Source: Antedon mediterranea
Lineage: Eukaryota; Echinodermata; Crinoidea; Comatulida; Antedonidae
Assembly: GCF_964355755.1 (NCBI RefSeq)
Contig: NC_092674.1
Location: 27,640,001 to 27,704,000 of the forward strand
DNA length: 64,000 bases
Direction: 5' to 3'
Positions 22,501 through 56,729 of this stretch are shown here, piece by piece. A model generated the notes under the pieces. That model had not been told where the DNA came from and did no database searches. It worked only from the letters and a program-made list of their open reading frames with translations. The first letter of the stretch is position 1, and each line of letters opens with the position of its first letter. The translations under genes and the position numbers were made by a program.

Positions 22501-25500
22501 ATAAGTTTGATGTTCCCAAATAATATGGTAGTGATATTACGCTTAAATATGGTAATGATATGACATCGTCATCTTATTATATGGCCACATCAAATTTTGT
22601 TGTCACATAAAGTTTGATAGTGTAGATAAGACGAGGCTTAATAGAGAATATACCCATAATTATTTCATCAACAAAATTAATACATTTTGTATTATAGTAC
22701 TGTATTTAGTTTACAGCATCACATTCAAGTTACTTAAATAAATCATTTTGTTTGACAAATCCAAATGAAATTACTCACATTCTTTAGCTTTCGCCATCTT
22801 GGCTGATGGCTTGATCACAGGTGATCCGGTCCACTGCTACAATCCTACAAAATGCACTTATTCACGGACATCTAATTATTGTTTTTATACAGCTGATGTT
22901 TTGTAGGGGTTCGTTAATTGAAGCCTTGATTGAGTCCAGAGTCAGCCGCTATGCTGAATTCAAAGCTATAACAAGGACATTGACATTTATCAATGGAAAA
23001 ATAGAAAAGGTGCACATTTATTAAATACTATATTTATAGATAAAGTTTAATTTATTTTATTTTACTAGTAATCTATCCAATATTTCATATGTTATTACAC
23101 CTCATTATTTTTTTACTGAAGGTTCCATGTTCTAGAGCTGATGTATTCAGTAGCAAATATGTGACAATGTTAGAGAAAAGAATACTGATGAAGTTTATAG
23201 AATTTTGTTTACACTATCAAGAAAGACAATTAGAATATGAAGGTAAGATGTTATAACGTGTATGTTAAGCTCTTTTTACACTATCAAACCAGTGGCGTAT
23301 CCAGGATTTTGAAGTTGGGGGGAGGGGCCACGAATTGCCAATTTGCCGACAAAATTGGTGTCATTATCTGTACATACACCTGATCAATACATGTTCTAGG
23401 ATTGCATAGTCATAATTGTCTTATATGGGATAACGATGCAAAATTAAAACCAAACCAACATTATCTGTTAGTATGTTGTATTCATATTACAATAAAGGAA
23501 GAATTAGGAAAATCTGATTTGTAGTTAAGCTCTGTTTACACTATCAAACTACTTTGACAAAAGAAAAATGTGATGTACACAAATATGGTAGTGATATGAC
23601 ATCACCATGGCCATATATGGGCACATCAAATTTTGTTGTCGCATAAAGTTTGATAGTGTACTGTAGACAGGACTTATTCAGGTTTAATAATACCAGGACC
23701 AAGTATGTTATATTTTGTACCATGGTACATCCAGACTAAATCAAATCTGTGTCTTAAGCTCTGTCTACAATACCAAACTAGTTTGACAAAAAAAGTATGA
23801 TGTGCCTAAATATGGTAGTGATATGCCCAAGTATGGTAGTGATATGACATCATCATGTCCATATATGGGCACACCATGTTTTTGTCACATTGATAAGATA
23901 AGCTTTATACAAATCTTGTTTTGCAGAATATTTGAACAAACCATTTGTAGAGTTTTTAAAGTTCAAGAAGCTTACCAGCACATTACAGCATTTTGTTATA
24001 CACTCCATTGCCATGGTAACGCAAGATACACTAACAGAAGATGTAAGTTAAAATATTTATTTCCACATCCAACAGTGTGTGAACTTATCAATTATAGAAA
24101 AAACTAAGCATGTGTCTTATTATAATGATGATAGACCTACTTTTAAAACTATTGTCTAGCAATATTTGGCCACATAATATTATTAATTATACAGCGTGAA
24201 CAGTATATTTCTTAATTATATTTTCAGGGGTTGAAGGCCACGCATCATTTCTTGAAATCACTTGGTCGCTATGGCAATACAGCATTTCTATGGACGCTCT
24301 ATGGAAGTGGAGAGCTCCCTCAATGTTTCTGTAGAATGTGTGCTGTTTTTAATGGAATCTATATGTTACGATGTACAGGGAAAGGACTGATTGTTGATGC
24401 CGAAAATAAGTGAGTAGGATTTAATTTAGTTCAGAAGATGGCTTCAGAGATGTCCAGGTTTAATTAGCTAAATGTCTTGCAGAACCTCTGTAGCTTTAAA
24501 GGTCTGGAAATCAAATCCATTTCTTTACTAACTACACTACCTATCAAGCTAGTTTGAAAAGTGTGATGTGCCCATATATGGTAGTGATATGCCAAAATAT
24601 GGTAGTGATGTGACATCATCATGTCTATATATGGGCAAATTAAACCAATTATTGGTAGGCTGTATATCCTGTAATCACACAATACTGTACTATATCTGTA
24701 GGAATGACATAATTTAATTTGTTTACTAGATGTAAAGGCATCATCAGCTCAGATGGAAGAAGATTGATCTGCAAGAATATTATTATGGATCACAGCTACA
24801 GGCCATCGCTGGCGTCTGCTGCCACTACCTCGTACGTATTAGATTTTGTTTTCATACAAAAGCTTTAAAGCTCTGTCTACACTATCAAACTTAATGTGAC
24901 CAAAAAATGTGATGTGCCCATATATGGACATGATGATGTCATAACACTACCATATTTAGGCACATCACACTTCCTTTATCAAACTAGTTTGATAGTGTAG
25001 ACAGAGCTTAAGAGAAATTACAATATGTTAAAGGAAGTGTGATGTGCCTAAATATGGTAGTGTTATGACATCATCATGTCCATATATGGGCCCATCACAT
25101 TTTTTGGTCACATTAAGTTTGATAGTGTAGACAGAGCTTAAGAGAAATTACAATATGTATAAACTGTGTCAGGCTTATAATCTATTAAGTTAGTACAGTT
25201 CTCCATTCTGCAGTAGGTAATTTATTTTATTACAACACTAGTAATTTTAACCATATTTGATTACATTTAGACTTGTTTCCAGAGCAGTGTTTATGACTGA
25301 CCGATCTATATGGCCAACCGGTCAAGAGGAGGTAAGATAATAATCATTTTATTACTATTATTTTAAAAATTATAATATTTATACAATTTTAATATGATAC
25401 TGTATTAATTCAGTAATTGTTATTACTGTATTTATAACATTTCAGATATCTTTACTGACTGTTCCTCCACTTGAAGGGAGCCCTCAAACTATCCAAGTTA

Positions 25501-30546: not shown

Positions 30547-33500
30547 TTAAGGACTTTCTTGAGTGAAGTACTTTGGTGTGCCCATGTGATAACGATGATC
30601 GCTGCCTAAATGGTGTCCATTGTAGAAATTACCAAACCTTAAAAAAAATACAAAAAAAAAGTGTCAATGATCTCTAGTAGTCTTGACCTTTGTGTCGTTA
30701 ATTCAAATTATGGTAATTAATGTAACATTAACACCTTTATAATGGTTATTTCATAACATTTACATCTTTTGAAACATACAAATGTTTACTCATTAGAAAA
30801 TTAGATATAAAATCATGCATTTGCATTAGCCATTTAATGGCTAATGCAAATGCATGTTTTTATATCTAATTTAGGTTGAAATGTGAGAGATGTGACCCAT
30901 GCTACACAGTGTGCACTTAATTTTATTGTACTCTATTTATTCAGTGAGTCACTTCTACAACAAATTATCAAACTGAAGAATGTCCCAATGATCAGTTCTA
31001 CATAAAATGACAACCCCATCATTTTCTCTTTATCCGAATGTGACACATTTTCCAATAATCAAGAATGTGTTTAATAGCACTATATTTTTTGTCAATGAGT
31101 CACTTGGAAGCTTACCTTTGTGGAAAGTGGACAGACGGGTCAACCTTATTTTTGTCTATAACAACTACATTATTATCTTGTTGTGAATCTTTAGCCAGGA
31201 TGTTGAATTTAGCAAGCTGTGCTTCTGTGTCACTCAGCTCCCCATGCGATATCCTGGCATATCCAACTCTACACCAAGAATAAAAGGTAAAATTAAAGTC
31301 ACAATAGTCATCCATACAAACTGTATATTAACAAAATGTGTAGTTTTTTAATATTTCATGTATTTGAATAATGTATTTGTGGATACCTTTTCATCCTTTA
31401 AGCTCACACTATCAAACTTTATGTGACAAAAAATATGATGTGCCTATATATGGAAATGATGATGTCATACCACTACTATATTTGGGCATATCACTTCCAT
31501 ATTTGGGCATATCACTTCCATATTTGGGCATACCACTACATATAATGGAAATGATGATGTCACTAACATATTTGGGCACATCATACTTCTTTGTCACATA
31601 AAGTGTGATAGTGCAGACAGAGCTTTAGACTAATGTACGTGTGGGTACTTGGTTAAGTTTAAAGCTCTTTCTACACTATCAATCTAGTTAGACAGAAAAA
31701 GAGCGATGTGCCCAAATATGGTAGTGATATGACATCATCATGTCCATATATGGGCACATCACATTTTTTTGTCACATAAAGTTTGATAGTGTAGACAGAG
31801 CTTAAGACATGATATATCTCACCATGTTTATATAATTTTGTCAGACATAGAAGAAATTCTATACTGTCCAGTGATACAAGAAATTAAATTTTGTAATTGG
31901 TAAAGATGCCTTTACCAATTACAAAATTTTGCTATAAAAAATGTTAAAAATTATTAAGTTTTAAAAATAGCTGGAATACGTAAAACATTCTTTCACTTTC
32001 TTAACAAAAGTGATAACTTATCTATCAACAAAATCATTTTCCCACTTTTAATTTCCTCTATTGTTTTATGATAACAAATATAAATACAGGGATTACAATG
32101 CAGTTTTGTGATAATTTATTAAAATGTAATCATACCTTTTAAGACGATTATAAAATATATACTGGCAGAATCGGTCAACATCGGATGAGTCAATATCCTT
32201 TAGAAGAAAAAATGAATAAGATCACAGAAAGGTCAATTTAATATTTCTTATTAATTCATTACAGTGGCTAATTCTGAGAAGAAAGTTATTAGAATTTAAT
32301 TGAGGAGATATAGGGTGAAAAGAGAGCAGAATTACAAATGACAGACAGCTCATATTTTGGTATTGTATGCTTGTAAGTTGGAGTTCAAATATTTTCAACA
32401 TATCATCATCTTGAATGTGTGTGTACTTGTATCTACTTACTGTAAGTATTGTTTACAATGACTAACCAATCAAATGCAAGCGACCTTTCACCAGAAAACA
32501 TTTAGCAGGAAACAGGTGAAAATTTCTATATGCTAATTATACAAACTAATTTGCATAATACAGATTTTGCTGTAGACACAGCTTACAGTACATAGACTAT
32601 CACTCTGGATATTTGTATCAGTGTTTGTTACTGAAGAATTTTATTCATTAGAGACTGTAAAGTTGGAACTTAATTTGATCAAGTTGATTCTGTACATAAA
32701 GTAAATAATTAACATGGACCCCTACATGGGTTAGTGTGTGAAGGATATATCTACCAGTACCTATGAATGGATGGCCAGTACAAAAAGGATCTAATGTAAA
32801 TGTAAGTACTGTCATTTATATTTATGTAGTCTAGAGAAATGATGTTGCAGCAGGAATCTACCTGTATTTCTATGCTAGCATAAAAGGTACAGTAAGTAAA
32901 TCAGATGTTAGGGAACTTTTGATTTTTAATAACCTAGGACCAAGTTAGGCCGTATTAATTGATTGTTATCCAGACTACGGAGAATGTGCAGAGACGTATC
33001 GAGAGTATTCAGACGAACATCCTGCCTACCTTGAGTTTACCAATGTATCTTATGCGGTTGTAATCACGACTGTCTGGTTTTGAAACTATGTATCCCATAA
33101 AAACAATCGGACGATTACTGCAAGAAAAAATACATTATAAATTTATCTTTACTATTTAAACAATCCAATAGTTATATACTATAAACTTTCATTTACAGAC
33201 TATGGTACTATAATGCTAAAATATACTCTTAAAGGCTAATTTACATAGACGAGCGGTAATGTTAAGCGGAAAACTGCGTAGCTCGTCCCACGTAGAATCT
33301 GTATCTATCCTGAGTGATAAATGCCCGTCCGCTCCGTGTTGTGTGTAAATGGTCATATGGAATAACATTGATTCTATATTTTTATTACCGTTACCGCTTA
33401 TCTGTGTAAATTGGCCTTTAGTCATAAATGATAGTACAGTATATATAATCAGTTCTCCCATAATGATTGCTGGGTGTGCTTTTACAATACAACATGTATT

Positions 33501-36500
33501 CTAGTCCACTGTGTACTGTATATTATAAAGAGAATTATAAATTTGCACTATTGTGAAACCCGTTGATAAAAGCTCTATTATTATTATAAGCGACAATTAT
33601 TATTATTGATAACGCTAACAAATAAAATTAATGAGCTGTTGAAAAAGAAATTTATACTACACATAATTAGAATTTTATTCCGTAATCCTCAAGGTCAATG
33701 AGTTACTCTCAGAAAGGGTTATTACTAAGATGGGGATATGCTTATATTTTATGTTGAGGTAGGTTTATAATTAGGCCAATAATAGGGCTATAGTAATAAT
33801 AAAACATGCATTTAATCTCATACCTGGCTTTAGTAATATTAGCTAGATACTCGGCCTGTAGTTTGCGATCTTCGTCGTCTCTACTGTAATGTGAAAAAAA
33901 AAATTAATTTTAAAGTAAATTTTATAATTTTAAACAAGTTTGGTGCTTAATAACAAACATGCTTGTCCAACAACCTGGGTACAAATCTTTTTCTTGTCTC
34001 AAGTGTAAATTATATAACAATAATCTGCAAGCATTTATATTAATTTAATATTTCTATCAAGCATTTCACAATCAGGCATACAAAAAACATAAAGATTATG
34101 TAATGTATTAATAAAAACATTGCTTATTATTTACAATAATGTAAAACATAATCTTGCAAACAAATTATATAGCCATATAGAATTTCTTATTAACAAGTAT
34201 ATCCACTACATTCTCAATGCAAAATATATCAACTATATCAACAATACAACACGTTCTTAGTAGTACACAGAAGCGCAAAATATCGATAAATCTCACCTCA
34301 GTGAAAGTAATATATAGAATAAATAGAAAGGGAAAACAAAAATAGGAAAATTATATATCAAATATTGTAACAGTGGTTATATGTACAGATAACTATATAA
34401 GAATGCATACATAGTTTATAAATTTTAGTTTAATTTTAAAACCATAAAAGTAAAAGAATTAACAATATAATTCCCATGTAAAATCATTTACATAAAGTAC
34501 CATCCATATATATTGTATATTTAGAGCAAAATATGAATTTTTAACTTAAGTTAACGTATGCTATTTTCCATAATTATGAATATTAAAACTGTATATAAAT
34601 GAATAATTTGTATATTAACTGAGACAAGTATGAATATTTTCATACTTTTTATAAAATATTAAAACCATAAAAAATAGTAAGTATTTAAATTTATTTCTAA
34701 TGAATTATGTAAATGAAGAATATACATATATTAATTGTAAGTTATCCTTTTGATAATCAGAGCATGGTAAAACAGATGTATATCAAATAACGTGATGATA
34801 TTGAAACTGTATTGTCAAAATTCAGATTGGCTGATAACATAGCAGGTTCTGGCCATTTATACAGTGTACATAATATTCAAAAACAGTTATAGCAGTTTGC
34901 ATTAAGGTAAGTATTTACATTGTTTGTGGTGTTGCTTAAAAATGTTTTGGATATCTTTTATTTTAAAAGATTTTTAAATTTAATAACTTTTTCAATTCAA
35001 TAACATTTAATAATACAAGAATAATAAACAATAAGAAACAGTAATTTTTTAAACCAATTAAGGACAATTTTATGGCCCTGGTACTTAGTGTGTGATGCAT
35101 ACAAGGATCTCACTTAATACAAGGAGATAATAATTTTGTATGTAAATAACAATACATCACACTTAAAAAGCATTATTGAGTTAAAATAATTAATCATAAA
35201 ATATGACACAAAAAAAATGTTGTGAATTTTTCTAAATAACCAGAGGAATAAAGGAAAAAATAAATAAAATAAAAAATGATGACATTATAGTTGTGTAATA
35301 ATTCATTTTAAGTTCATTTCGAGTTTGTATGTGTTTCCTTTTAATCTCCATCGACCTATTTTCTGATTCTTAATGATAAATTAATGACTTTTTGATGATG
35401 AATAATTAAATAATATATTTGAATTTGAAGTATGTGTGAATACCTTCCTGTGAATTTGATGTACATTAAAGTAGATCATTATAAATGTGTCAGGAATGTC
35501 AGTGTTTATAAGTTAATTATAATAAGTCTGTTCCAATATGATGTTCACACATAGTGTTATCAGTATACAAAATAAGCATTTAGGAAATCTGTTTTAGTCA
35601 TTGTAGAAATTCTTGTAAAATTAATATTGCCAATGAGATAACTTTATGAAACGTAATAGAGATAAGAAGTAGAGTCAATTGTCCTAAATCCGAACTAAGT
35701 CTGAAACTTTCCCAAAACGGAAACCAGACTGTATTAAAATTTAAAAACAAGCAAAATTTTTAAAATTGCGCAAGTTTAGAGAAACATTTTGACATTTTTC
35801 TCGCAATACGCCAGTTTCCTTTAACAAACATAAAATAAGACAATCTTCAAATTAAAATTAAATTTATTGTTATCTTAGTTATAGTATCAATAGTGCAGTA
35901 TAAATATCTTAGTATCAATAGTGCAGTATAAATATCTTAGTATAAAAAACGCAGTATAAATATCTTAGTATCAATAGCGCAGTATAAATATCTTAGTATC
36001 GATAGCGCAGTATAAATATTGTAGTATCAATAGTGTAGTATAAATATTATAGTATCGATAGCGCAGTATAAATATTATAGTATCGATAGCGCAGTATAAA
36101 TATCTTAGTATCAATAGCGCAGTATAAATATCTTAGTATCAATAGCGCAGTATAAATATCTTAGTATCAATAGCGCAGTATAAATATCTTAGTATCAATA
36201 GCGCAGTATAAATATCTTAGTATCAAAAGCGCAGTATAAATATCTTAGTATCAATAGTGCAGTATAAATATCTTAGTATCAATAGTGCAGTATAAATATC
36301 CTAGTATCAATAGCGCAGTACAAATAGACAATACAAATATCAAAATATTCAAAAAACATCCCCAAGATGATCGCAGTATACAAATGAGATAAATGCAAAT
36401 ACATAATTGAGTGAATTAGAACAAATCTATATTTGCTACTGTGTATACATACCCTTCATTTCCCATGTGACCTGTGACAACGTCTACGAGCGTGCCCGAG

Positions 36501-39500: not shown

Positions 39501-41910
39501 AAATACCCATCGCAAATGTTAGAGTCTTGACCGGTGGACAACTAGTCAGTCGGTCACTTATCTCTGGCCAGATTGACATGGTGTAAAGTGCAGAAAGAAG
39601 ACCGAACGCAAATGCGGTGTAAGCATCAAAGTAATACATAGCGATGATGCAATGGCCGCCAATAAACCACGTCCAAAGAAAGTGAGTAGCTAGGCCAGCT
39701 TTGGAGGCGATCATTAGTCCTGTCACAAGTTCAATAAACACTCCACAACTGAAAATATATAAAAAGTATTTATCTATACAGCATGGCTAACCTTTGTAAA
39801 ATTGTAATCTACGAGTGCTGAGGTATATTTGGAGGGATGAGAAAAGCACCTTATCCATGGGAAGCATGAAATAAAGTACACCAATAGGCTTTCATTTCAA
39901 TCTTAATATTTTTTTGGGACTTAAAGATATTGGCCCCTTGAAACAATAATGTTGTACATTTTTGTTGTTGAATATGCCAATTTAATGTCAAATAATGGTT
40001 ATTCACTTTGACCAAAAATTAAATGGAAAAAAAACCCAATTATTTACCTTAAAAAACTGTAGCTTAAAGAAATTGAACCGTTTACTTTTTATAACAAACT
40101 TTTTTTCCATGAAAGATTAGCTTTATTAATCTGCAAAATGATCTATTCAATGTCTTTATGTAACCTTTTGATATTTTATTATTCAAGTCATTTTTGCCAT
40201 ACCTAAATGGGTAAGGGCTAGGCCCAGTATAAGGATATCCCTTTCCAATCCAGCGACACAACACAGCCACATCACCAAATAAACAATGAGTAATGAATAA
40301 CAGGCTCCCGAAACCTGCGGCTATCTTCTTCCAATGAGTGTTGACCTTTGTGTTAGGCTTAGCTTCAGGCAGTGGAAACTCAACTACAAAAGTAATTATA
40401 TTAATTCGGTTTACTTTTAAAAGCTTCATATATTTAATTTTTATTAAAGATAGTCTTTCAAACAATTGATTTTTAAAATGTTAGTCAACACTATATGGCA
40501 ATATATGCAGCTTTGTTATACTGTAGTAGTATAACATTTCATTGTACAAATTTTCCTTTTTTTAAGTCATGGGCCATTTTTGGTTTATCCAGGTAAGTGG
40601 GCAAATATATTGACCTATAGATCTTACCTGCTATGTACCTATCGATTACAGCAATAACACCAAGAGCAATGACAACGTTATTTGACGTAACATTGCTCCA
40701 GGCTGGCGTGATCGAAATGAACCATACTCTTGATGCTAAAAGTGCTATAAAGCCCAACAGATGGCCCCATAAAGACATACATCTGGTGAAATAATAAACA
40801 TTCAATGAATAAAATTTTGTTTATAATATATGCACAACAGACGGTAAAGAATAAATTTACATTTTTTTAATGAAACTATTGTTTTTCTTGTTGAAGTTCC
40901 ATACCTTTGATAAGCAGACATTAAATTTACATGTTTTTTTTAAACAAATATTCTGAAACTTTGTTTTCGTTTCTTTGACGTTCCATACCTTTGATAAGCA
41001 GATTTGTGCCACCACGTTGCCAACAACAACAAAATCGCAAAGAAATTACCACCAGCTAGAATCTGTAGTCGCAGCAACGTTGTTGGCGCCTGAAATGAGG
41101 CAACAGACGCTACACATAATAATCGCAGGATTAAAATTCCTGATTTACTTTGAATGGCATTTAGGAAGCGCGTTGAAATGCAGAGTAGAGGGCTGAACCA
41201 GACGAGTGCGTAGGCTTCGTATCCTGATATTTCCAACTGGTTGAGGGGGTAAAACCATACCATAGGTGCTAGTGCATGAAATATGGACCAAAACACATAT
41301 CCTGAAATATTAAACAAATGACATATTAGATGAAAAAATCATAACAAACATTAATTATAAAAAAAAAAAAATTAAACAAATCCATAGTAGGAAAGCTGTC
41401 GACTGTGCCGATGGAAAACAACCAATTACATGCATGGTTAACCTCCATGCGGATAGAAAATTAATAAATTACACGCATGATTGACCACAATGGAAAAATA
41501 TTGTAATGTAATAAATGGTAAATTCGGTTCATCTATATTACATTAATAATTGATAATATCATAGGCCTACTCATAAGATATATTTTTGTATAATTAATCA
41601 ATAAAAGAAATCTAGGCCTATAACCAGCAGGCTGAACTGGAAGGCAAGTGATTTTGAGCTGGTGGGACTGGGTGTGTGTCGCCTGTCTGTGTCACTGTGA
41701 CACACACAATCGACGCTTACCGATCACAGCCTCAGAAATCAAAGGCCTTATATAGCTTCTTGGGTGCCCGTACACCTCTATTTCTTCTTCCTCCTCCTCT
41801 TCTTCTTGTTGTTGTTCAGGTGTTACCTCATCGGGAATCTTTTGATCTTCTTTAGTATCTTCTTCTTTAGTTTTTGTTTCTTTCTCGTTTTTCTTTGTGC
41901 GAGCTGCCAT
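30547..41910 (-). CDS. CWH43: CWH43 / PGAP2-interacting protein, 14 exons, 747 aa
   Basis: ER/Golgi multi-pass protein of GPI-anchor lipid remodelling (yeast Cwh43 puts ceramide on GPI anchors). Exons in coding order: 41910-41721, 41301-40989, 40782-40628, 40383-40203, 39748-39431, 38844-38684, 38376-38191, 37926-37791, 36602-36453, 33883-33824, 33117-33030, 32197-32136, 31268-31116, 30637-30547 (stop TAA); all phases match. Residues 1-60 are charged with an eight-Glu run. Then a multi-span FRAG1/PGAP2-like membrane region ([37 protein letters not shown]). The C-terminal endonuclease/exonuclease/phosphatase-fold half has [56 protein letters not shown] and ends [13 protein letters not shown]. 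It aligns along its length with human CWH43 (~699 aa). A polyA signal on this strand lies near 30470-30475. A 12-kb repeat element ends 97 bp upstream of the ATG. Confidence 0.95.
30798..30872. repeat. 75-bp near-perfect palindrome with paired ATGCAAAT motifs, CWH43 intron 13
   Basis: AAATTAGATATA ... ATGCATTTGCATTAGCCAT, a TTA loop, then the complementary ATGGCTAATGCAAATGCAT ... TATATCTAATTT. The stem is about 35 bp with one small bulge. The two ATGCAAAT octamers match the POU-factor site consensus, but no function is shown. Confidence 0.8.
31398..31629. mobile_element. AAGCTCTG MITE, expanded copy, CWH43 intron 13
   Basis: Left end TTAAGCTCACACTATCAAAC, right end GATAGTGCAGACAGAGCTTT. The centre holds three or four CCATATTTGGGCATATCACT units, making it longer than the usual ~145 bp. 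Confidence 0.8.
31658..31806. mobile_element. AAGCTCTG MITE, CWH43 intron 12 side
   Basis: TTTAAAGCTCTTTCTACACTA and GATAGTGTAGACAGAGCTTA ends; typical centre GATATGACATCATCATGTCC. Lies 29 bp from the preceding copy. Confidence 0.88.
31886..31929. repeat. 44-bp palindrome in CWH43 intron 12
   Basis: AAATTTTGTAATTGGTAAA pairs with TTTACCAATTACAAAATTT across a six-base loop. No function evident. Confidence 0.75.
33229..33422. mobile_element. MITE with ends AAAGGCYAATTTACA, CWH43 intron 10
   Basis: AAAGGCTAATTTACATAGACG at the left; at the right GTGTAAATTGGCCTTTA. Contains GCTCGTCCCACGTAGAATCT, also seen (diverged) at 61970-62030 and 15490-15510. Confidence 0.75.
33900..35870. other. AT-rich part of CWH43 intron 9
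   Basis: The 2.57-kb intron 36452-33884 is extremely AT-rich here. I see no coding segment, RNA gene or recognisable repeat in this part. Confidence 0.5.
35879..36325. repeat. 28-bp minisatellite, ~16 units, CWH43 intron 9
   Basis: Unit AGTATCAATAGCGCAGTATA AATATCTT, with variants (AATAGTG, GATAGCG, ATTATAG). Every unit contains TATAAATA. The array ends about 130 bp from exon 9. Confidence 0.92.
36936..37089. mobile_element. AAGCTCTG MITE, CWH43 intron 8
   Basis: TTAAAGCTCTGTCCACACTAT at the left; the right end is degenerate (AATAGGGTAGAGAGAGC). Centre in inverted orientation. Confidence 0.78.
38509..38657. mobile_element. AAGCTCTG MITE, CWH43 intron 6
   Basis: TAAGCTCTGTCTACACTATC and GATAGTGTAGACAGAGCCTT ends with a typical centre. 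Its edge lies only about 26 bp from the donor of exon 6. Confidence 0.88.
39930..40060 (-). repeat. Interspersed repeat fragment, CWH43 intron 4
   Basis: In reverse orientation shares TCAAAGTG-type and GGGTTTTTTTTCC sequence with 21055-21330 and 59455-59760. Fragmentary. Confidence 0.45.
40896..40918 (-). repeat. Copy of the CWH43 exon 2 splice donor
   Basis: The 23 bases at 40896-40918 are identical to 40980-41002, which span the end of exon 2 and its GT donor. The duplicate lies 84 bp into the intron and keeps an intact donor-like TCAAAGGTATGG on the minus strand. Confidence 0.85.
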
Positions 41911-42006
41911 CTTGTATCTAACGCCCTCGTGTGAAATGAAAACAAACTGTATAAATTAGTCTTGGAGGAACCAGACACCGATAATCGATAAAAGTACGGA
42001 ACTCTT
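41911..42006 (-). promoter_or_regulatory. CWH43: Short CWH43 5' flank between the start codon and the 12-kb element
   Basis: Only 96 bp separate the ATG from the inserted element, so the 5' UTR and any promoter are either within this segment or inside the element's left end. No TATA box is recognised. The last bases (41999-42006) are the left target duplication GAACTCTT. Confidence 0.4.
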
Positions 42007-42260
42007 GAGCTATATTGTGTAGTCGTTTTTTGATAACTGAGAACTATCAGTGTGTATCATCCTCGTACATAATTGTTTCTTAGTTGTAATAAAGATCACA
42101 TTATTATAACATCTAGCATGTTATTATAATATATAAATTTATAGGTATCAATACTAATATTTTTATTTTCAAAAAAATTCGATAAGTAATTTAATAACAC
42201 TAAAACAACATTCTTAATATAACAAATGATATGCAGTACTACTAAATCAATGTCTAATTG

Positions 42261-45200
42261 CATTGTACAGTATTATGATCAGTGTAGTTACAATTTGATA
42301 ACTGAGCACGGATCTTTTAATATCTACCTCATCAATAATTAGCATTGATATCATATATCACATTGTTGGATATGATCAGTGTAGTCATAATTTGATAACT
42401 GAGCACGCATCTTTTAATATCTACCTCATCAATAATTAGCATTGATATCATATATCACATTGTTGGATATGATCAGTGTAGTCATAATTTGATAACTGAG
42501 CACGCATCTTTTAATATCTACCTCATCAATAATTATTTTTAATAATCTATATCACATTGTTCGATATGATCAGTGTAGTCATAATTTGATAACTGAGCAT
42601 GCATCTTTCAATATCTACATCATCAATAATTATTATTATTAATCTATATCACACTGTTGGATATGATCAGTGTAGTCAGAATTTGATAACTGAGCATGCA
42701 TCTTTCAATATCTACATCATCAATAATTATTACTAATAATCTATATCACATTGTTCGATATAATCAGTGTAGTCAGAATTTGATAACTGAGCACGCATCT
42801 TTCAATATCTACATCATCAATAATTATTATTAATAATCTATATCACACTGTTGGATATGATCAGTGTAGTCAGAATTTGATAACTGAGCACGCATCTTTC
42901 AATATCTACATCATCAATAATTATTACTAATAATATATCACATTGTTGGATATGATCAGTGTAGTCAGAATTTGATAACTGAGCACGCATCTTTTAATAT
43001 CTACCTCATCAATAATTATTATTAATAATCTATATCACATTGTTGGATATTATCAGTGTAGTCAGAATTTGATAACTGAGCACGCATCTTTTAATAGCTA
43101 CCTCATCAATAATTAATGTTAATAATCTAAATCACATTGTTGGATATGATCAGTGTAGTCAACATTTGACAACTGAGAACGCATCTTTTAATATCTACCT
43201 CATCAATAATTATTACTAATAATATATCACATTGTGCGATATGATCAGTGTAGTCAGAATTTGATAACTGAGCACGCATCTTTTAATATCTACCTCATCA
43301 ATAATTATTATTAATAATCTATATCACATTGTTGGATATGATCAGTGTAGTCAGAATTTGATAACTGAGCACGCATCTTTTAATATCTACATCATCAATA
43401 ATTATTAATAATAATCTATATCACATTTTGGGATATGATCAGTGTAGTCATAATTTGATAACTGAGCACGCAGCTTTTAATATCTACCTCATCAATAATT
43501 GTTATTAATATCTTATATCACATTGTTGGATATGATCAGTGTAGTCATAATTTGATAACTGAGCACGCATCTTTAAATATCCACCTCATCAATAATTATT
43601 ATTAATAATCTATATCACATTGTTGGATATAATCAGTGTAGTCATAATTTGATAACTGAGCACGCATCTTTCAATATCTACATCATCAATAATTATTATT
43701 AATATCTTATATCACATTGTTCGATATGATCAGTGTAGTCATAATTTGATAACTGAGCACGCATCTTTAAATATCTACCTTTTAATAATTAATATTAATA
43801 ATCTATAGCACATTGTTTGATAGGATCAGTGTAGTCATAATTTGATAACTGAGCACGCATCTTTCAATATCTACCTCATCAATAATTATTATTAATAATC
43901 TATATCACATTGTTGGATATAATCAGTGTAGTCATAATTTGATAACTGAGCACGCATCTTTTATTATCTACCTCATCAATAATTATTATTAATAATCTAT
44001 ATCACACTGTTGGATATGATCAGTGTAGTCAGAATTTGATAACTGAGCACGCATCTTTTAATATCTACCTCATCAATAATTATTATTAATAATCTATATC
44101 ACACTGTTGGATATGATCAGTGTAGTAAGAATTTGATAACTGAGCACGCATCTTTAAATATCTACCTCATCAATCATTATTATTAATAATCTATATCACA
44201 TTGTTGGATATGATCAGTGTTAGTAATAATTTGATAACCGAGCACGCATCTTTCAATATCTATTTCATCAATAATTATTATTAATACTCTACATCACATT
44301 GTTGGATATGATCAGTGTAGTCATAATTTGATAACTGAGCACGCATCTTTCAATATCTATATCATCAATAATTATTAATAATAATCTATATCACATTTTG
44401 GGATATGATCAGTGTAGTCATAATTTGATAACTGAGCACGCATCTTTTAATATCTACCTCATCAATAATTGTTATTAATATCTTATATCACATTGTTGGA
44501 TATGATCAGTGTAGTCATAATTTGATAACTGAGCACGCATCTTTAAATATCTACCTCATCAATAATTATTATTAATAATCTATATCACATTGTTGGATAT
44601 AATTAGTGTAGTCATAATTTGATAACTGAGCACGCATCTTTCAATATCTACATCATCAATAATTATTATTAATATCTTATATCACATTGTTCGATATGAT
44701 CAGTGTAGTCATAATTTGATAACTGAGCACACATCTTTAAATATCTACTTTTCAATAATTAATATTAATAATCTATAGCACATTGTTTGATAGGATCAGT
44801 GTAGTCATAATTTGATAACTGAGCACGCATCTGTCAATATCTACCTCATCAATAATTATTATTAATAATCTATATCACATTGTTGGATATAATCAGTGTA
44901 GTCATAATTTGATAACTGAGAACGCACCTTTTAATATCTACATCATCAATAATTATTAATAATAATCTATATCACATTGTTGGATATGATCAGTGTAGTC
45001 ATAATTTGATAACTGAGCACGCATCTTTTAATATCTACCTCATCAATAATTAATGTTAATAATCTATATCACATTGTTGGATATGATCAGTGTAGTCATA
45101 ATTTGATAACTGAGCACGCATCTTTAAATATCTACCTCATCAATAATTAATGTTAATAATCTATATCACATTGTTGGATATAATCAGTGTAGTCATAATT

Positions 45201-47212
45201 TGATAACTAAGCACGCATCTTTTAATATCTACCTCATCAATAATTATTATTAATATCTTATATCATATTGTAGGATATGATCAGTGTAGTCATAATTTGA
45301 TAACTGAGCACGCATCTTTCAATATCTACATCATCAATAATTATTAATAATAATCTATATCACATTTTGGGATATGATCAGTGTAGTCATAATTTGATAA
45401 CTGAGCACGCATCTTTTAATATCTACCTCATCAATAATTGTTATTAATATCTTATATCACATTGTTGGATATGATCAGTGTAGTCATAATTTGATAACTG
45501 AGCATGCATCTTTAAATATCTACCTTTCAATAATTAATATTAACAATCTATAGCACATTGTTTGATAGGATCAGTGTAGTCATAATTTGATAACTGAGCA
45601 CGCATCTTTCAATATCTACCTCATCAATAATTATTATTAATAATCTATATCACATTGTAGGATATGATCAGTGTAGTCATAATTTGATAACTGAGCACGC
45701 ATCTTTCAATATCTACATCATCAATAATTATTAATAATAATCTATATCACATTGTTGGATATGATCAGTGTATTCATAATTTGATAACTGAGCACGCATC
45801 TTTTAATGTCTACCTCATCAATAATTAATGTTAATAATCTATATCACATTGTTGGATATGATCAGTGTAGTCATAATTTGATAACTGAGCACGTATCTTT
45901 AAATATCTACCTCATCAATAATTAATGTTAATAATCTATATCACATTGTTGGATATGATCAGTGTAGTCATAATTTGATAACTAAGCACGCATCTTTTAA
46001 TATCTACCTCATCAATAATTATTATTAATATCTTATATCACATTGTAGGATATGATCAGTGTAGTCATAATTTGATAACTGAGCACGCATCTTTCAATAT
46101 CTACATCATCAATAATTATTAATAATAATCTATATCACATTTTGGGATATGATCAGTGTAGTCATAATTTGATAACTGAGCACGCATCTTTTAATATCTA
46201 CCTCATCAATAATTGTTATTAATATCTTATATCACATTGTTGGATATGATCAGTGTAGTCATAATTTGATAACTGAGCACGCATCTTTAAATATCTACCT
46301 CATCAATAATTATTATTAATAATCTATATCACATTGTTGGATATAATCAGTGTAGTCATAATTTGATAACTGAGCACGCATCTTTCAATATCTACATCAT
46401 CAATAATTATTATTAATATCTTATATCACATTGTTCGATATGATCAGTGTAGTCATAATTTGATAACTGAGCACGCATCTTTCAATATCTACCTCATCAA
46501 TAATTATTATTAATAATCTATATCACATTGTTGGATATGATCTGTGTAGTCAGAATTTGATAACTGAGCATGCATCTTTTAATATCTACCTAATCAATAA
46601 TAATTATTAATAATATCTATATCACATTGTTCGATATGATCAGTGTAGTCATAATTTGATAACTGAGCACGCATCTTTCAATATCTACCTCATCAATAAT
46701 TGCTATTAATATCTTATATCACATTGTTGGATATGATCAGTGTATTCATAATTTGATAACTGAGCACGCATCTTTAAATATCTACCTCATCAATAATTAT
46801 TATTAATAATCTATATCACATTGTTGGATATAATCAGTGTAGTCATAATTTGATAACTGAGCACGCATCTTTCAATATCTACATCATCAATAATTATTAT
46901 TAATATCTTATATCACATTGTTCGATATGATCAGTGTAGTCATAATTTGATAACTGAGCACGCATCTTTCAATATCTACCTCATCAATAATTATTATTAA
47001 TAATCTATATCACATTGTTGGATATGATCTGTGTATTCATAATTTGATAACTGAGCACGCATCTTTCAATATCTACCTCATCAATAATTATTATTAATAA
47101 TCTATATCACATTGTTGGATATGATCTGTGTATTCATAATTTGATATAACGCATCTTTTAATATCTACCTAATCAATAATAATTATTAATACTTAATGTT
47201 GGATATGATCAG
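42261..47212 (+). repeat. Satellite A, left arm: 97-bp monomer, ~51 copies
   Basis: Monomer core GATCAGTGTAGTCATAATTT, then GATAACTGAGCACGCATCTT, TAATATCTACCTCATCAATA and an ATTATTAATAATCTATATCA stretch ending CACATTGTTGGATAT. Successive GATCAGTG positions (42277, 42374, 42471, 42568, 42665) are 97 bp apart. Variant monomers recur about every 970 bp, showing a higher-order pattern. No open reading frame. Confidence 0.95.
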
Positions 47213-47879
47213 TGTGATTTTGTTAGATTTACTGTATACAAGAGATCGAGTCGATGGGTTTTGAAAATGTGTTATTCTTTTGTTCCTAATTACCCTATTG
47301 ATTTGTATCCGTTTGCTGTTTAAATTTATACTTTTAAGAACGCATCGTTTATGATGAACGTGTGCCGTTGTAAAAATAAAAATATTCCATATCTTTTTAT
47401 GTTTGATATGTATTGTAGGGGCCATCATGAGACATGCTTTGGCTTCTATTGAGGGTCCCAGTTCTTCTTAACAGAATAAATGTGCAGTGAATAAATAATT
47501 TGATAAATGAGGACGTGTGTTTTAACATCGATCTATACAGACCGTAATACTCTTCCAGAAATGATATGTTGCTATAATAGGCCTATGACCAATTTCCATT
47601 ACATTAATAATTCAATTAAGATTGGAAATGTGTCAGAAATACTAAAGAAATCCAGTAATCTTATTGATTAATAATTATTTATACCATTTCAGAAAACTAA
47701 ACTTGCAGCCAATCAAAAAGCTGCTGTACTGTATAAGTAGGGAATTTTAAGTAGGAGTTGTTTTAAATGTCATTGGTCTCGGCTAATCAGTTATTGCCAT
47801 TTATGATAGGCATCTTTATTACCAAACAATATTAAAATATAATTACTTCCTTCACATTTTACAACCTAGTTTGTGTTTT
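47213..47879. other. Spacer between satellites A and B
   Basis: Single-copy-looking AT-rich DNA with no supported gene. A short minus-strand open frame here shows no recognisable content. Confidence 0.5.
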
Positions 47880-50760
47880 AAAATGTCAATTTTGGATAAA
47901 TTTACAGATTTTACCATTTAAACTGCGTAAACTTAATGCAAACTTTAAAAAAACACCCACAAACATCATCCAAACAACTTAATATTGATTATACCACTAC
48001 AAGAACTATAAAAGAGGACAATTTATGAAATAATTTCATTGAAATAGCTCTAGGTTTGATATTTTAGGGTAAAAAATGTCAATTTTGGATAAATTTTCAG
48101 ATTTTACCATGTAAACTGCGTAAACTTAATGCAAACTTAAAAAAACACCCCACAAACATCATTCAAACCACTTAATATTGATTATATCACTACTAGAACT
48201 GTAAAAGAAGACAATTTTTGAAATCAATTTATTGAAATAGCTCTAAGTTTGACTTTTTAGGGTGAAAAATGTCAATTTTGGATAAATTTACAGATTTTAC
48301 CATTTAAACTGCGTAAACTTAATGCAAACTTTAAAAAAACACCCACAAACATCATCCAAACAACTTAATATTGATTATACCACTACAAGAACTATAAAAG
48401 AGGACAATTTATGAAATCATTTTATTGAAAAAGCTCTAGGTTTGATTTTTTAGGGTGAAAAATGTCAATTTTGGATAAATTTACAGATTTTACCATTTAA
48501 ACTGCGTAAACTTAATGCAAACTTTAAAAAAACACCCACAAACATCATCCAAACAATTGAATACTGATTATACCACTACAAGAACTATAAAAGAGGACAA
48601 TTTATGAAATCATTTTTATTGAAATAGCTCTAGGTTTAAATTTTTAGGGTAAAAAATGTCAATTTTTGATAAATTTTCAGATTTTACCATGTAAACTGCG
48701 TAAACTTAATGCAAACTTAAAAAAACACCCCACAAACATCATTCAAACCACTTAATATTGATTATATCACTACTAGAACTGTAAAAGAAGACAATTTTTG
48801 AAATCAATTTATTGAAATAGCTCTAAGTTTGACTTTTTAGGGTGAAAAATGTCAATTTTGGATAAATTTACAGATTTTACCATTTAAACTGCGTAAACTT
48901 AATGCAAACTTTAAAAAAACACCCACAAACATCATTCAAACAACTTAATATTGATTATACCACTACAAGAACTATAAAAGAGGACAATTTATGAAATAAT
49001 TTTATTGAAATAGCTCTAGGTTTGATTTTTTAGGGTGAAAAATGTCAATTTTGGATAAATTTACAGATTTTACCATTTAAATTGCGTAAACTTAATGCAA
49101 ACTTTAAAAAAACACCCACAAACATCATCCAAACAATTGAATACTGATTATACCACTACAAGAACTATAAAAGAGGACAATTTATGAAATCATTTTTATT
49201 GAAATAGCTCTAGGTTTGAATTTTTAGGGTAAAAAATGTCAATTTTTGATAAATTTTCAGATTTTACCATGTAAACTGCGTAAACTTAATGCAAACTTAA
49301 AAAAACACCCCACAAACATCATTCAAACCACTTAATATTGATTATATCACTACTAGAACTGTAAAAGAAGACAATTTTTGAAATCAATTTATTGAAATAG
49401 CTCTAAGTTTGACTTTTTAGGGTGAAAAATGTCAATTTTGGATAAATTTACAGATTTTACCATTTAAACTGCGTAAACTTAATGCAAACTTTAAAAAAAC
49501 ACCCACAAACATCATCCAAACAACTTAATATTGATTATACCACTACAAGAACTATAAAAGAGGACAATTTATGAAATCATTTTATTGAAATAGCTCTAGG
49601 TTTGATTTTTTAGGGTGAAAAATGTCAATTTTGGATAAATTTACAGATTTTACCATTTAAACTGCGTAAACTTAATGCAAACTTTAAAAAAACACCCACA
49701 AACATCATCCAAACAATTGAATACTGATTATACCACTACAAGAACTATAAAAGAAGACAATTTATGAAATCATTTTATTAAAATAGTTCTAGGCTTGACA
49801 TTTTTGGGGTGATTATAAAATAATTTTATTGAAATAGCTCTAGGAATAAATTGACACATTTTACCATTTAAACTGTGCAAACTTTTAAAAAACACCCCAT
49901 AAACATCATCCAAACCACTTAATATTGATTATATTATTATTAGAACTATAAAAGAGGACAATTTATGAAATAATTTTATTGAAATGGCTCTAAGATTTTT
50001 TTAGGAGTGAAAAATGTCAATTTTGGATAATTGACAGATTTTACCATGTAAACTGCGTAAACTTAATGCAAACTTTAAAAAATACCCCACAAACATCATT
50101 CAAACAATTGAATACTGATTATACTACTACTAGAACTATAAAAGAAGACAATTTATGAAATCATTTTATTAAAATAGTTCTAGGTTTGACATTTTTGGGG
50201 TGATTATGAAATAATTTTATTGAAATAGTTCTAGGAATAAATTGACACATTTTACCATGTAAACTGTGCAAACTTAATTAAAAAATACCTTACAAACATC
50301 ATTCAAACAATTGAATACTGATTATACCACTACTAGAACTATAAAAGAGGACAATTTATGAAATAATGTTATTGAAATGGCTCTAAGATTTTTTTAAGAG
50401 TGAAAAATGTCAATTTTGGATAATTTACAGATTTTACCATGTAAACTGCGTAAACTTAATTAAAAAACACCCACAAACATCATCCAAACAACTTAATATT
50501 GATTATACCACTACAAGAACTATAAAAGAGGACAATTTATGAAATCATTTTATTGAAATAGCTCTAGGTTTGATTTTTTAGGGTGAAAAACCACTTAATA
50601 TTGATTATCACTAAAACTATAAAAGAAGACAACTTATGAAATGATTTTATTGAAATAGGTCAGTTTGACCTTTTTGGATAAATTGACAGATTTTAAAGTT
50701 TAAACTTTACAATGCAAAAAAGGCCATCTGCAAACATCCTTCAAACCACTTATTATATTA
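47880..50760 (+). repeat. Satellite B: ~193-bp monomer, ~14-15 copies
   Basis: Monomer contains AAATGTCAATTTTGGATAAA, AAACTGCGTAAACTTAATGC, ACACCCACAAACATCATCCA, CTATAAAAGAGGACAATTTA and TTATTGAAATAGCTCTAGGT. Starts at about 47882, 48075, 48268, 48461 and 48654. A variant with CACCCCACAAACATCATTC recurs every third monomer (48124, 48717, 49297). Units after ~49780 are increasingly deleted and diverged. Confidence 0.94.
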
Positions 50761-50779
50761 AGACAATATTAATATTTGA

Positions 50780-52625
50780 AGCAGATATAAAATGATGCAT
50801 GCTCAGTTATCAAATGACTAGGCCTACACTGATCATATTTGATATTGGTATATAGACAATTAATATTAATTATTGTTGAGGTAGTTCAAACTATGATTAC
50901 ACTGATCATATCCAAAATTGTGATATAGAATATTATTAATAGTTATGGAAAAGGTAGATATTAAAAACCTAAACAGATCATATCCAACAGTTTGATATAG
51001 ATTATTAATATTAATTAATGATGATGCAGATATTAAAAGATTTTTGCTCAGTTATCAATTTATGACTACACTGATCATATCCAACTATGTGATATAGATT
51101 ATTAATAATAATTATTGATGAAATAGATATTGAAAGATGCGTGCTCAGTTATCAAATTATGACTACACTAATCATACCCAACATTGTGATATAGATTATT
51201 AATAATAATTATTGATGAGGTAGATATTAAACTATGTATGCTCAGTTATCAAACTATGACTACACTGATCATTTCCAACATTGTGATATAGGATATTATT
51301 AATAGTTATTGATAAGGTAGATATTAAAAAACTAAACACATCATATCCAACAGTGTGATATAGATTATTAATATTAATTATTGATGAGGTAGATATTGAA
51401 AGATGCATGCTCAGTTATCAAATTATGACTACACTGATCATATCCAACAGTGTGATGTAGAGTATTAATAATAATTATTGATGATGTAGATATTAAAAGA
51501 TGCGTGCTCAGTTATCAAATTATTACTACACTGATCATATCCAACAATGTGATATAGATTATTAATAATAATTATTGAAAGGTAGATATTTAAAGATGCA
51601 TGCTCAGTTATCAAATTCTGACTACACTGATCATATCCAACAATGTGATTTAGATTATTAACATTAATTATTGATGAGGTAGATATTAAAAGATGCGTGC
51701 TCAGTTATCAAATTCTGAATACACTGATAATATCCAACAATGTGATATAGATTATTAATAATAATTATTGATGAGGTAGATATTAAAAGATGCGTGCTCA
51801 GTTATCAAATTCTGACTACACTGATCATTATCCAACAATGTGATATAAGATATTAATAATAATTATTGATGAGGTAGATATTAAAAGATGCGTGCTCAGT
51901 TATCAAATTATGACTACACTGATCATATCCAACAATGTGATATAGAATATTATTAATAGTTATTATTGATAAGGTATATATTAAAAAACTAAACAGATCA
52001 TACAGTATCCAACAGTGTGATATAGATTATTATTAATAATTATTGATGAGGTAGATATTAAAAGATTTTTGCTCAGTTATCAAATTATGACTACACTGAT
52101 CATATCCAACAATGTGATATAAATTATTAATAATAATTATTGATGAAATAGATATTGAAAGATACGTGCTCAGTTATCAAATTATGACTACACTAATCAT
52201 ATCAAACATTGTGATATAGGATATTATTAATAGTCATTTATAAGGTATATATTAAAAGATGCGTGCTCAGTTATCAAATTCTGACTACACTGATCATATC
52301 GAACAATGTGATATATTATGATATTAATATTAATTATTGATGAGGTAGATATTAAAAGATGCGTGCTCAGTTATCAAATTATGACTAACACTGATCATAT
52401 CCTACATTGTGATATAGGACATTATTAATAGTTATTGATAAGGTAGTTATTAAAAGATGCGTGCTCAGTTATCAAATTTTGACTACAAAGATCATATCCA
52501 ACATTGTGATGTAGATTTATATTAATATTAATTATTGATGATGTAGATATTAAAAGATGCATGCTAAGTTATCAAATTTTGACTACACTGATCATATTTG
52601 ATATTGTGATTGATGATATATTCAT
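50780..52625 (-). repeat. Satellite A, right arm, inverted: ~19 copies
   Basis: Reverse-complement monomers (GATGCGTGCTCAGTTATCAA, then ATTCTGACTACACTGATCAT, ATCCAACAATGTGATATAGA). More diverged than the left arm and interrupted by variants such as AAAAAACTAAACAGATCATA. Confidence 0.93.
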
Positions 52626-52649
52626 ATAAATAGTGTACAATACTCACAG

Positions 52650-52742
52650 TATTTTTTAATCCATCCACATGAAGAAGAGACACAAGAAGAGTTGTTTGAA
52701 ATTGTGAAGCCTCACAACCTTACTAATTGTGATGACATTTAA
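52650..52742 (+). pseudogene. Possible captured terminal-exon fragment inside the 12-kb element
   Basis: After an acceptor-like ACTCACAG there is an open frame of 30 codons ending in TAA: YFLIHPHEEETQEELF, then EIVKPHNLTNCDDI. Its composition looks protein-like against an AT-rich repeat background. I do not recognise the source, and chance is a real alternative. Confidence 0.25.
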
Positions 52743-53009
52743 TATAATATTACAGCCATACACAAACAGTAAGGTAGTTAGGGTCACTACAATCTATTAA
52801 AATAATTAACAATAATTAACTGGAAACATTGTTAATTATCAGTTTGAGTTTGACTTTTGTCTCTTTTGTTGTAGAATTGAATCTCTGTTTATCCATTGCT
52901 TTCAACCTGAAAATAAACAGGCCTAATACCTTGGCATTAGCAATGAAATCAACTTACACACTGATGAATCTTAATACTCCTACCTACCTATCCAATATTT
53001 TATATAGAT

Positions 53010-53650
53010 AGGCTGTCTATGACCCCCCAGCCTATCCCTAGCTAGGCCTATGCCTCTCTAGACCATTCTGCTGGCTAGCTAGCAAGGCCCTAGGCCTAGT
53101 CCTATAATTAATAGCACAGGTCTCATATAGATAGGCCTAGAGTGTTTAGACTGAGCCTGGTTATATGCCTATTTATTTAACTAGGACTAGGCAGGCCTAA
53201 TCAGCCTAAACTAAGGCCTAATAAACTAGTCTAGGCCCTAACTAGAATACATAGAGCTAGCTAGTTAGGCAGCCTAGGCCTAGGCCTAGCTACTTATTAG
53301 CTAGTAAGTAGGCCTAGCTAGCTAGCCTACCAATTCCCTAGTAAGGCCTAACCAGGTGGGCCTAGCCTAGTAGCAGTAGTAGTACGTCATAGTAGTCTAG
53401 TAGTAGCCTACTATGCCAGGGTACTTCTTTCTATTTCTAGGCCTAGCTAGACTAGGCTAGCCCTAGTAGGCCTAGCTAGACTAGGCTAGCCCTAGTAGGC
53501 CTAGCTAGGCTATAGGCCTAGTAGTACTAGGCCTACATAGGCCTAAACTACTAGCTAGAGTAGAGAGATGCTAGCCTAACTAGGCCTAGGCCCTAGCTAG
53601 CTAGCTAGACTTCTAGGCTAGAGGCTAGTAGGTAGGCCTAATCTGCCCTT
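53010..53650. repeat. CTAGGC-rich low-complexity tract
   Basis: Hundreds of bases made of overlapping TAGGCCTAG, CTAGCTAG and GTAGTAG words. GGCCTA words also occur sporadically throughout the window. Lies in the right spacer of the 12-kb element. Confidence 0.9.
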
Positions 53651-54130
53651 TTTGTTTGGCGGCTAAAATATTGTCTGAAATAAGCTATATGACCTACAAA
53701 TATAGCTTAACTATCTGTTAAGGGTGACACTGATGATGGGTAATCAATAAAATATGCTTCTAAATCTACCTTTTTGGCTTGCAATCATAATATCCAGTCT
53801 AGCCTAGGCCTGCACGGATCAGGTAGCGAAACGAACGAAGTGAGAGCAGAGAGAGGAGGAGGAGGCCTGGAGGCCTAGGGCCTAGGTTTCAGGCAGAAAA
53901 GAACATCTTGAGTTTGTGTAATTATATATCTATTTATAGTTATTTTAAAATATATGTCTAACATTTAAAAAATTATATATATTAGTGATAATTAACTATA
54001 AGAATAAAACTCTACCTAATGATATAATCAATTAAATGTATTTTCCGTACAAAATTAATTATATACGAGGATGGCATAAGTGATAGTTCTCTGTTATCAA
54101 AAAACAACTACATACTATACCTGAACTCTT

Positions 54131-56354: not shown

Positions 56355-56729
56355 TGTTTGTCTACACTATCAAAGCGTACAGTCAGGGAACATTTTCGCC
56401 AGTGTAGCGTAGCAAAAAGCTATACAAAACAACCTTATTGCTACACATTTTGAAAATTGTGTAGCAAAAAATACAATACAAAACTATGTTTCTCGACTTA
56501 AAAATCAGTTTGATTAGCAATATTGCTAAACAAAATTTTTAAATGAAAATTTTCCCTGAGCAGTGCTGTATGTGTGACAAAAAAGTGTGATGTGCCCTAA
56601 TACGGTAGTGATATGCCCAAATATGGTAGTGATATGCCCAAATATGGTAGTGATTATGACATCATGTCCATGGGCACATCACATTTTTTGTCACATAAAT
56701 AAAGGTTTGATAGTGTAGACAGAGCTTTA
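56355..56729. mobile_element. AAGCTCTG MITE interrupted by a CAGGG MITE
   Basis: Left end TTTGTCTACACTATCAAAG (56366 on), then the CAGGG element, then the rest of the AAGCTCTG copy with three TATGGTAGTGAT units and right end GATAGTGTAGACAGAGCTTT. Confidence 0.85.
56387..56561 (+). mobile_element. CAGGG-ended MITE, copy 2, nested
   Basis: CAGGGAACATTTTCGCCAGT to AAATGAAAATTTTCCCTG. Inserted in the outer MITE, so it moved after that one. No clean target duplication at this copy. Confidence 0.85.

Follow-up and report, generated by a model that had tools for sequence, protein, structure and literature searches.

The window analysed here, a 64,000-nucleotide stretch of the Antedon mediterranea genome (G000:C5:27640001-27704000, from an assembly of 354 Mb in 18 contigs), contains two opposed satellite arrays set between short direct repeats, and it raises the question of whether the whole is one transposed unit and, if it is, what moves it. 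The first-pass annotation had described a foldback element of about 12.1 kb, and most of the organization that it proposed is borne out. The single inserted unit occupies positions 42007–54123 (12,117 bp, plus strand, GAGCTATATTG...ACTATACCTG), and paired copies elsewhere have the same ends. The left terminal inverted repeat (TIR), the GAGC end (42007–42074, plus strand), is 84% identical across 66–67 bp to the right TIR, the CAGG end (54057–54123, minus strand), which is delimited by right-end matches and the shared termini. Inside the left TIR lie about 200 bp of unique subterminal sequence (42075–42273), followed by the left arm, an array of 50.8 units of a 97-bp satellite (42274–47191, plus strand) with 92% matches between units and with a TIR motif, GTGTAGTC..TTTGATAACTGAG, within the unit. 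A non-coding spacer (47192–47879) leads into a loop made of a different tandem array, with a 193/387-bp repeat (47880–50590), which is also found in three further copies described below (A, B and L086). The right arm, identified by repeat analysis, is an inverted and more degenerate array of the same 97-bp satellite (about 50886–52597, minus strand), and is separated from the right TIR by about 1.5 kb of unique subterminal sequence (52598–54056), as defined by right-end matches and comparison with copy A. The inverted arms are complementary at 93%, over up to 498 nt.

Genome searches with the two ends recover many further insertions, as the single-unit reading anticipated. The left 263 bp, which include the subterminal unique sequence, have at least 28 long matches at 91–100% identity among the best 40 of 56 candidates, the window included and at least 27 of them elsewhere; the right 223 bp have at least 26 near-full and three partial matches among the best 40 of 50 candidates. 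Left and right ends pair into at least 26 spans of 9.1–73.2 kb on ten contigs, and their median length, 12.1 kb, agrees with that of the window element. A 26-base end pattern allowing up to three mismatches was found at 56 places, against two for the reversed control, and 53 of the 56 are copies or fragments already known; the three others, each with three mismatches, were considered as diverged relatives and look like chance at that control level. An 18-base pattern with two mismatches, used for diverged relatives, gave 949 matches against 706 in the control and is dominated by chance. A 38-bp fragment (C3:15272968) and two right-end fragments (C4:23839556 and C1:34232584) are not counted as two-ended copies, and L088, on C2, is an internal fragment without ends. 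Inverted tandem-repeat arms, a loop, a target-site duplication (TSD) and many dispersed copies with common ends are together the features of a foldback-type TIR transposon.

The duplication is one base shorter than first thought. It had been read as 8, possibly 9, bp, from the direct repeat GAACTCTT; the element begins G|AGCTATATT on the left and ends ACTATACCT|G on the right, and because both of these outermost G's are found again at the intact ends of other copies, the TSD is the 7-bp AACTCTT (42000–42006 and, by flank comparison, 54124–54130), with GAACTCTT being the conserved terminal G plus AACTCTT. The G/C mismatch at the supposed ninth base pairs a base of the element with a base of the flank. 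Among the paired spans, 24 of 26 entered a TSD test, which left out C5:26697039, whose right end lacks 11 bp, and C1:20397698, where the ends are damaged; also left out were C3:10890101, whose nearest right end is in the wrong orientation, and C4:16385945, with no right end among the best 40 of 50 right-end candidates. Perfect 7-bp duplications flank 22 of the 24 tested copies, whereas mispaired left and right flanks agree at 7/7 in none of 552 combinations and at 6/7 or better in two, so the direct repeat is not a product of chance. The exceptions are C7:27530592, with an 8-bp repeat, AGGTAAAC, and C1:4755600, whose right end is missing its final bases but which has ATATAAT on both sides. Base counts at the 24 target sites, judged by eye, reveal an A/T at the centre only (23 of 24) and no palindromic motif like the GTANTAC of Galileo.

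Uninterrupted versions of the target were found for three copies, whose two flanks meet, with a 7-bp overlap each time, at six paralogous places: in L077 for C1:27182633 (overlap at 1765–1771); in L088 (358–364), L072 (646–652 and 2066–2072) and L085 (7218–7224) for C9:13105048; and in L004 (3026–3032), close beside the insertion itself, for C5:6318161. The flanks of these three copies are repeated DNA, and the six places are uninterrupted paralogues within the stretches of the genome that were examined. The comparison with an empty site that had been suggested therefore succeeds with paralogous sites, not with an allelic one. Long satellite arrays in inverted orientation challenge an assembler, and single array lengths, such as one of 53 kb, may be wrong; nonetheless, that an assembly artefact or a chance repeat explains the element is exceedingly improbable, and for the element as a unit this is already refuted by the 26 paired spans on ten contigs, with their independent evidence from 7-bp TSDs and empty sites, and by the excess of end-pattern matches over the control.

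We note that a putative minus-strand start codon at 41910 has the insertion about 90 bp upstream. Downstream minus-strand exons match PGAP2IP domains (PF23022 and PF23021), and from its position the first exon would belong to the same PGAP2IP-domain gene.

The copies differ greatly in array size. In the window, as in copy A (C5:6295203-6318161, 22.96 kb), the left arm comprises about 50 of the 97-bp units; the 9.1-kb copy L086 has about 36, and copy B reaches about 548. The 73.2 kb of copy B include a 53-kb satellite array and two frames that by eye resemble those of a LINE (879 aa) and of a gypsy element (1,220 aa). A 24-base stretch of the monomer, with at most one mismatch, matches 1,812 places genome-wide and none in the control; four copies counted in full account for 59, 53, 466 and 39 of these, and the remaining 1,195 would, by our estimate, amount to about 50 per copy if spread over some two dozen further copies. 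Of 100 such places that were listed, paired copies contain 89 and the internal fragment L088 the other 11. Two groups among the left ends less like that of the window, one with seven members and the other with four, are each identical across 250 bp. The nearest relative of the window element (C2:16450549-16463015) has one difference in the left 263 bp and none in the right 223 bp, yet across the first 1.76 kb, largely array, their identity is 94.7%; the arrays thus change faster than the ends. That the GAGC end always has the longer array is true of the window and copy A but not of L087, a copy of a second family described below, and the rule was dropped.

The left TIR (GTGTAGTCGTTTTTTGATAACTGAGAAC) agrees with the 97-bp unit (GTGTAGTCATAATTTGATAACTGAGCAC) at 24 of 28 bases in the same orientation, and matches as good were found in none of 500 shuffled units for the left TIR and in four of 500 for the right. 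The TIR-motif stretch is more conserved than the remainder of the unit in all seven arrays compared, ranking 10, 12, 6, 32, 12, 35 and 17 out of 96 possible 28-bp stretches, and in six of the seven the best-conserved stretch begins 2–11 bases to the left of the motif. In Galileo, tandem repeats in the long TIRs bear extra THAP binding sites according to the available text of PMC3688188; on this ground, and from the motif tests, it is plausible that the 97-bp array acts as a transposase-binding platform. It is also possible, if not the reading to which we lean, that the satellite arms are passive, having arisen by tandem duplication within a transposon, varying in unit number by drift and contributing nothing to movement. 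The wide variation in array size and the divergence of the arrays between the window and its closest relative, with its near-identical ends, would fit passive arms, but the result of the left-TIR shuffles and the conservation of the motif in every array speak against them, as do two unrelated satellites that occupy equivalent positions inside shared termini.

The second of these satellites came to light in copy A, which consists of the element plus a nested foldback of 9,970 bp with inverted arrays of a 101-bp satellite unrelated to the 97-bp one. The nested foldback has the ends CAGGTATATAAAC and GAGCTATATATCC and the TSD CCTCCTC, and its host site is in the right unique region of the 97-bp element (near 53870–53880 in window numbering). 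The window has no interruption there, although copy A and the window disagree at about ten bases of the junction. The end pattern of this 101-bp family has 164 matches (82/82) and none in the control, and those listed pair into at least 40 spans of 5.2–22.8 kb (median 8.8 kb), the family having more copies than these. A further copy examined in full, L087, has the TSD CTGTATG, so that the duplication is 7 bp in both copies examined. A TIR motif in the 101-bp monomer was considered and dropped, as 61 and 129 of 500 shuffles were as good, a result that sits well with passive arms.

In the 97-bp family as in the 101-bp family, a CAGGTATA end is paired with a GAGCTATA end. The SAGSTATA start of these termini has a frequency of 6.5e-5 per base across 14 other loci of the genome, and because of this rarity a common recognition sequence is the simplest reading. 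Since the families have the same asymmetric termini and a 7-bp TSD, they probably use one transposase. A broader proposal is that a single transposition system moves satellite cassettes, unrelated satellites of 97 and 101 bp having been recruited or grown behind the same CAGGTATA/GAGCTATA termini, with the arrays serving as a transposase-loading platform whose amplification would raise mobility and spread arrays of up to tens of kilobases; we offer this as speculative and think it, on balance, doubtful.

No transposase was found within the element, in agreement with the first-pass annotation. The window element has no stop-to-stop frame longer than 93 aa and L086 none longer than 94 aa, and no DNA-transposase frame was seen in copy A (23 kb) or copy B (73 kb); these four, out of 26 paired copies, are those covered. 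A 211-aa repetitive frame in the nested element of copy A matches no Pfam family, and the longest frame noted in L087 is 202 aa. No autonomous partner came to light, either through the end patterns or among the P-type loci and the one MULE described below. Transposase domains are nevertheless present in the genome, with 35 matches to PF21787 (the P-type RNase H), 12 to PF21788 and 36 to MULE transposase domains; among the matches listed, none is inside the 66 paired copies of the two families taken together; an autonomous copy with diverged ends may nevertheless exist.

The P-type transposons of this genome offer the closest comparison. PF21787 and PF21788 domains occur together in a 794-aa ORF, present in three copies that score equally, and this ORF matches the solved P transposase 6p5a (E 1.5e-14). 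Eleven P-type loci were examined as partners (L077–L085, L089 and L090), and four have two ends with 7-bp flanking repeats, belonging to three families: P794 (L077 and L078; TIR CTGAGACAAC..., TSDs CGGACAC and TATAAAC), P590 (L082; ends CATGGAGGTATAAAA..., TSD GATACCG) and P253 (L089; ends CAAAGATCTTAT..., TSD GTTTCAG). The end scan for two of the three families required identical 7-mers outside the ends and is blind to duplications below 7 bp; for P794, aligning two copies gave the ends independently as well. L090 has P253 ends with a 6-of-7 repeat, L079 and L080 have one recognisable end each, and no clear ends were seen in L081, L083, L084 or L085. None of the P-type transposons with definable ends starts with SAGSTATA; the CATGGAGGTATAAAA family has GAGGTATA four bases inside its end, which we regard as a lead only.

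We favour, with moderate confidence, the reading that this is a non-autonomous foldback DNA transposon served in trans by a P-type, Galileo-like transposase, its 97-bp arrays probably providing extra binding sites. The element would move as one unit, from the GAGCTATA end to the CAGGTATA end, presumably by a cut-and-paste route, with the transposase cutting the target at a 7-bp stagger. The 97-bp arrays would have grown by tandem amplification, perhaps through unequal exchange or slippage, of a unit containing the TIR's own subterminal motif. A P-superfamily partner, working like that of Galileo, is suggested as most likely because of the TSD length and the P-type background of the genome: TSDs of 7–8 bp are typical of P/Galileo elements, and here 22 of 24 are 7 bp and one is 8 bp, with 7-bp TSDs also in the three P-type families. 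Not every P element gives 7 bp, as zebrafish Pdre2 and Drosophila P have 8-bp TSDs (the available part of PMC10983969).

We judge it improbable that such an element is moved instead by a transposase of the Mutator superfamily (MULE). MULE transposases are encoded in this genome, including a 651-aa ORF in five equal-scoring copies, and most foldbacks seem to be Mutator members, as stated in the accessible part of PMC4079207; against this, the same source gives TSDs of 8–10 bp for the Mutator-type foldback Tetris, and MULE domains are missing from the paired copies among the matches listed. The single readable end of the 651-aa MULE, GGGGTCAGTC, is unrelated to SAGSTATA, and this MULE was rejected as a partner on that difference.

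Another or undescribed superfamily that makes 7-bp target cuts could also be responsible, which we regard as rather unlikely. Dada elements, for instance, have TSDs of 6–7 bp. The partner transposase has not been found, and the asymmetric C/G terminal base and SAGSTATA start are absent from the P-type transposons with defined ends, both of which favour such a source, but in a comparison of P-type transposons and one MULE, the ones that combine a transposase domain with 7-bp TSDs are P-type.

The P-type reading accords with the resemblance to Galileo, a P-superfamily transposon of Drosophila. In the portions available of PMC4168063, PMC3688188 and PMC3573991, Galileo has long TIRs with internal tandem repeats in some copies and subfamilies, many copies lack the transposase, and some tandem units carry secondary transposase-binding sites, a role that is only proposed for the present element; its TSDs are mostly of 7 bp, with a few of 8 (PMC4168063). 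In the same sources Galileo differs in having few repeats per array, the longest D. willistoni copy being 9,021 bp with at most nine repeats of about 140 bp per array, against 36–548 units in the left arm here. It differs too in having transposase-coding copies, none of which was found here, and a palindrome in its target sites, which by eye those of the present element lack. The terminal 40 bp of Galileo are conserved, and the likeness drawn here is one of structure and TSD. Tetris, a foldback of Drosophila virilis, is likewise non-coding and has no known autonomous partner, its TIR tandem repeat TIR-220 has a 37-bp stretch in common with the terminal domain, and TIR-220 is linked to satellite DNA (all from the accessible part of PMC4079207). 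Its TSD is 8–10 bp, its authors assign it to Mutator, and long TIR-220 arrays occur as satellite-like arrays (PMC4079207), whereas here all 100 listed monomer places (of 1,812) are in copies or the internal fragment.

The 7-bp TSD sets the present element apart from Mutator-type foldbacks such as FB and Tetris, with duplications of 8–10 bp. The foldbacks TU of sea urchin and FB of Drosophila have the same shape, with tandem repeats in the arms, but shorter repeat units and TSDs of 8–9 bp, compared with units of 97 and 101 bp and 7-bp TSDs here; in particular, the 8-bp TSD and short outer repeat unit of TU are not those of the Antedon element. The size and design of the element had been called unusual, and in the literature on foldbacks, Galileo and the P superfamily, TU and satellite arrays, consulted in part and mostly in openly accessible journals (including PMC6431247), we found neither a foldback with arrays of this size nor a case of two satellites sharing one pair of termini. 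With a second family that combines another satellite with the same termini, it is no single curiosity. On sequence grounds it appears to be a known kind, a foldback transposon, that is new, as far as these sources extend, in its array size and in having two satellites associated with a single set of termini.

The scattering of satellite arrays is a common phenomenon with few good explanations, and here the vehicle is visible in its termini, 7-bp duplications, empty sites and signs of recent spread; the element represents one way for long satellite arrays to travel around a genome. The long and similar inverted arms on ten contigs would be obvious substrates for inversion, as reported for Galileo in the sources available, and the presence of two unrelated satellites behind the same termini makes possible a direct test of whether such arrays are binding platforms or passengers.

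The window element, a foldback transposon with arms of 97-bp satellite, is inserted approximately 90 bp upstream of the putative start codon of a PGAP2IP-like gene (window 40082-41910, minus strand). Elsewhere in the window there is a 28-bp tandem array (35882-36326; 15.9 units, 93% matches), and a 21-bp minisatellite, GTGATATGCCCAAATATGGTA, is dispersed at many sites in both orientations, including 14514-14637, 23798-23846, 24563-24612, 31466-31543, 56587-56654, and others; the same minisatellite is present in the flank of another copy of the element.

One copy of the 97-bp family, on contig C1 (27182633-27255840; loci L069-L076 and L065), spans 73 kb, of which the 97-bp array occupies 53 kb (~548 units); the 7-bp target-site duplication matches on both sides, and LINE-like and gypsy-like frames, named by eye, are nested within it. 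On contig C3, a left end (10890101) and a right end (10878429) of this family lie ~11.7 kb apart in the same orientation, which suggests an inversion or a rearranged copy.

P-type transposons with CATGGAGGTATAAAA ends are found at locus L082 (257-6580), with one end each at L079 and L080, and carry GAGGTATA four bases inward of the end, a sequence similar to the terminal SAGSTATA of the satellite elements. A MULE on contig C2 (loci L091 and L092) has a 651-aa ORF, with five copies of equal score, long internal repeats, and a right end, GGGGTCAGTC, followed by short tandem repeats.

A second foldback family, represented at C5:6295454-6305423 (loci L066/L067), has arms of inverted 101-bp satellite arrays, a seemingly non-coding loop, and the same termini as the window element. 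Two of its GAGC ends face inwards at C10:7470327-7470879, separated by only 553 bp, as if forming a miniature element built from one end present twice. There are 164 end matches to this family genome-wide, and its spread is recent, since the 40 right ends scored are 99-100% identical.
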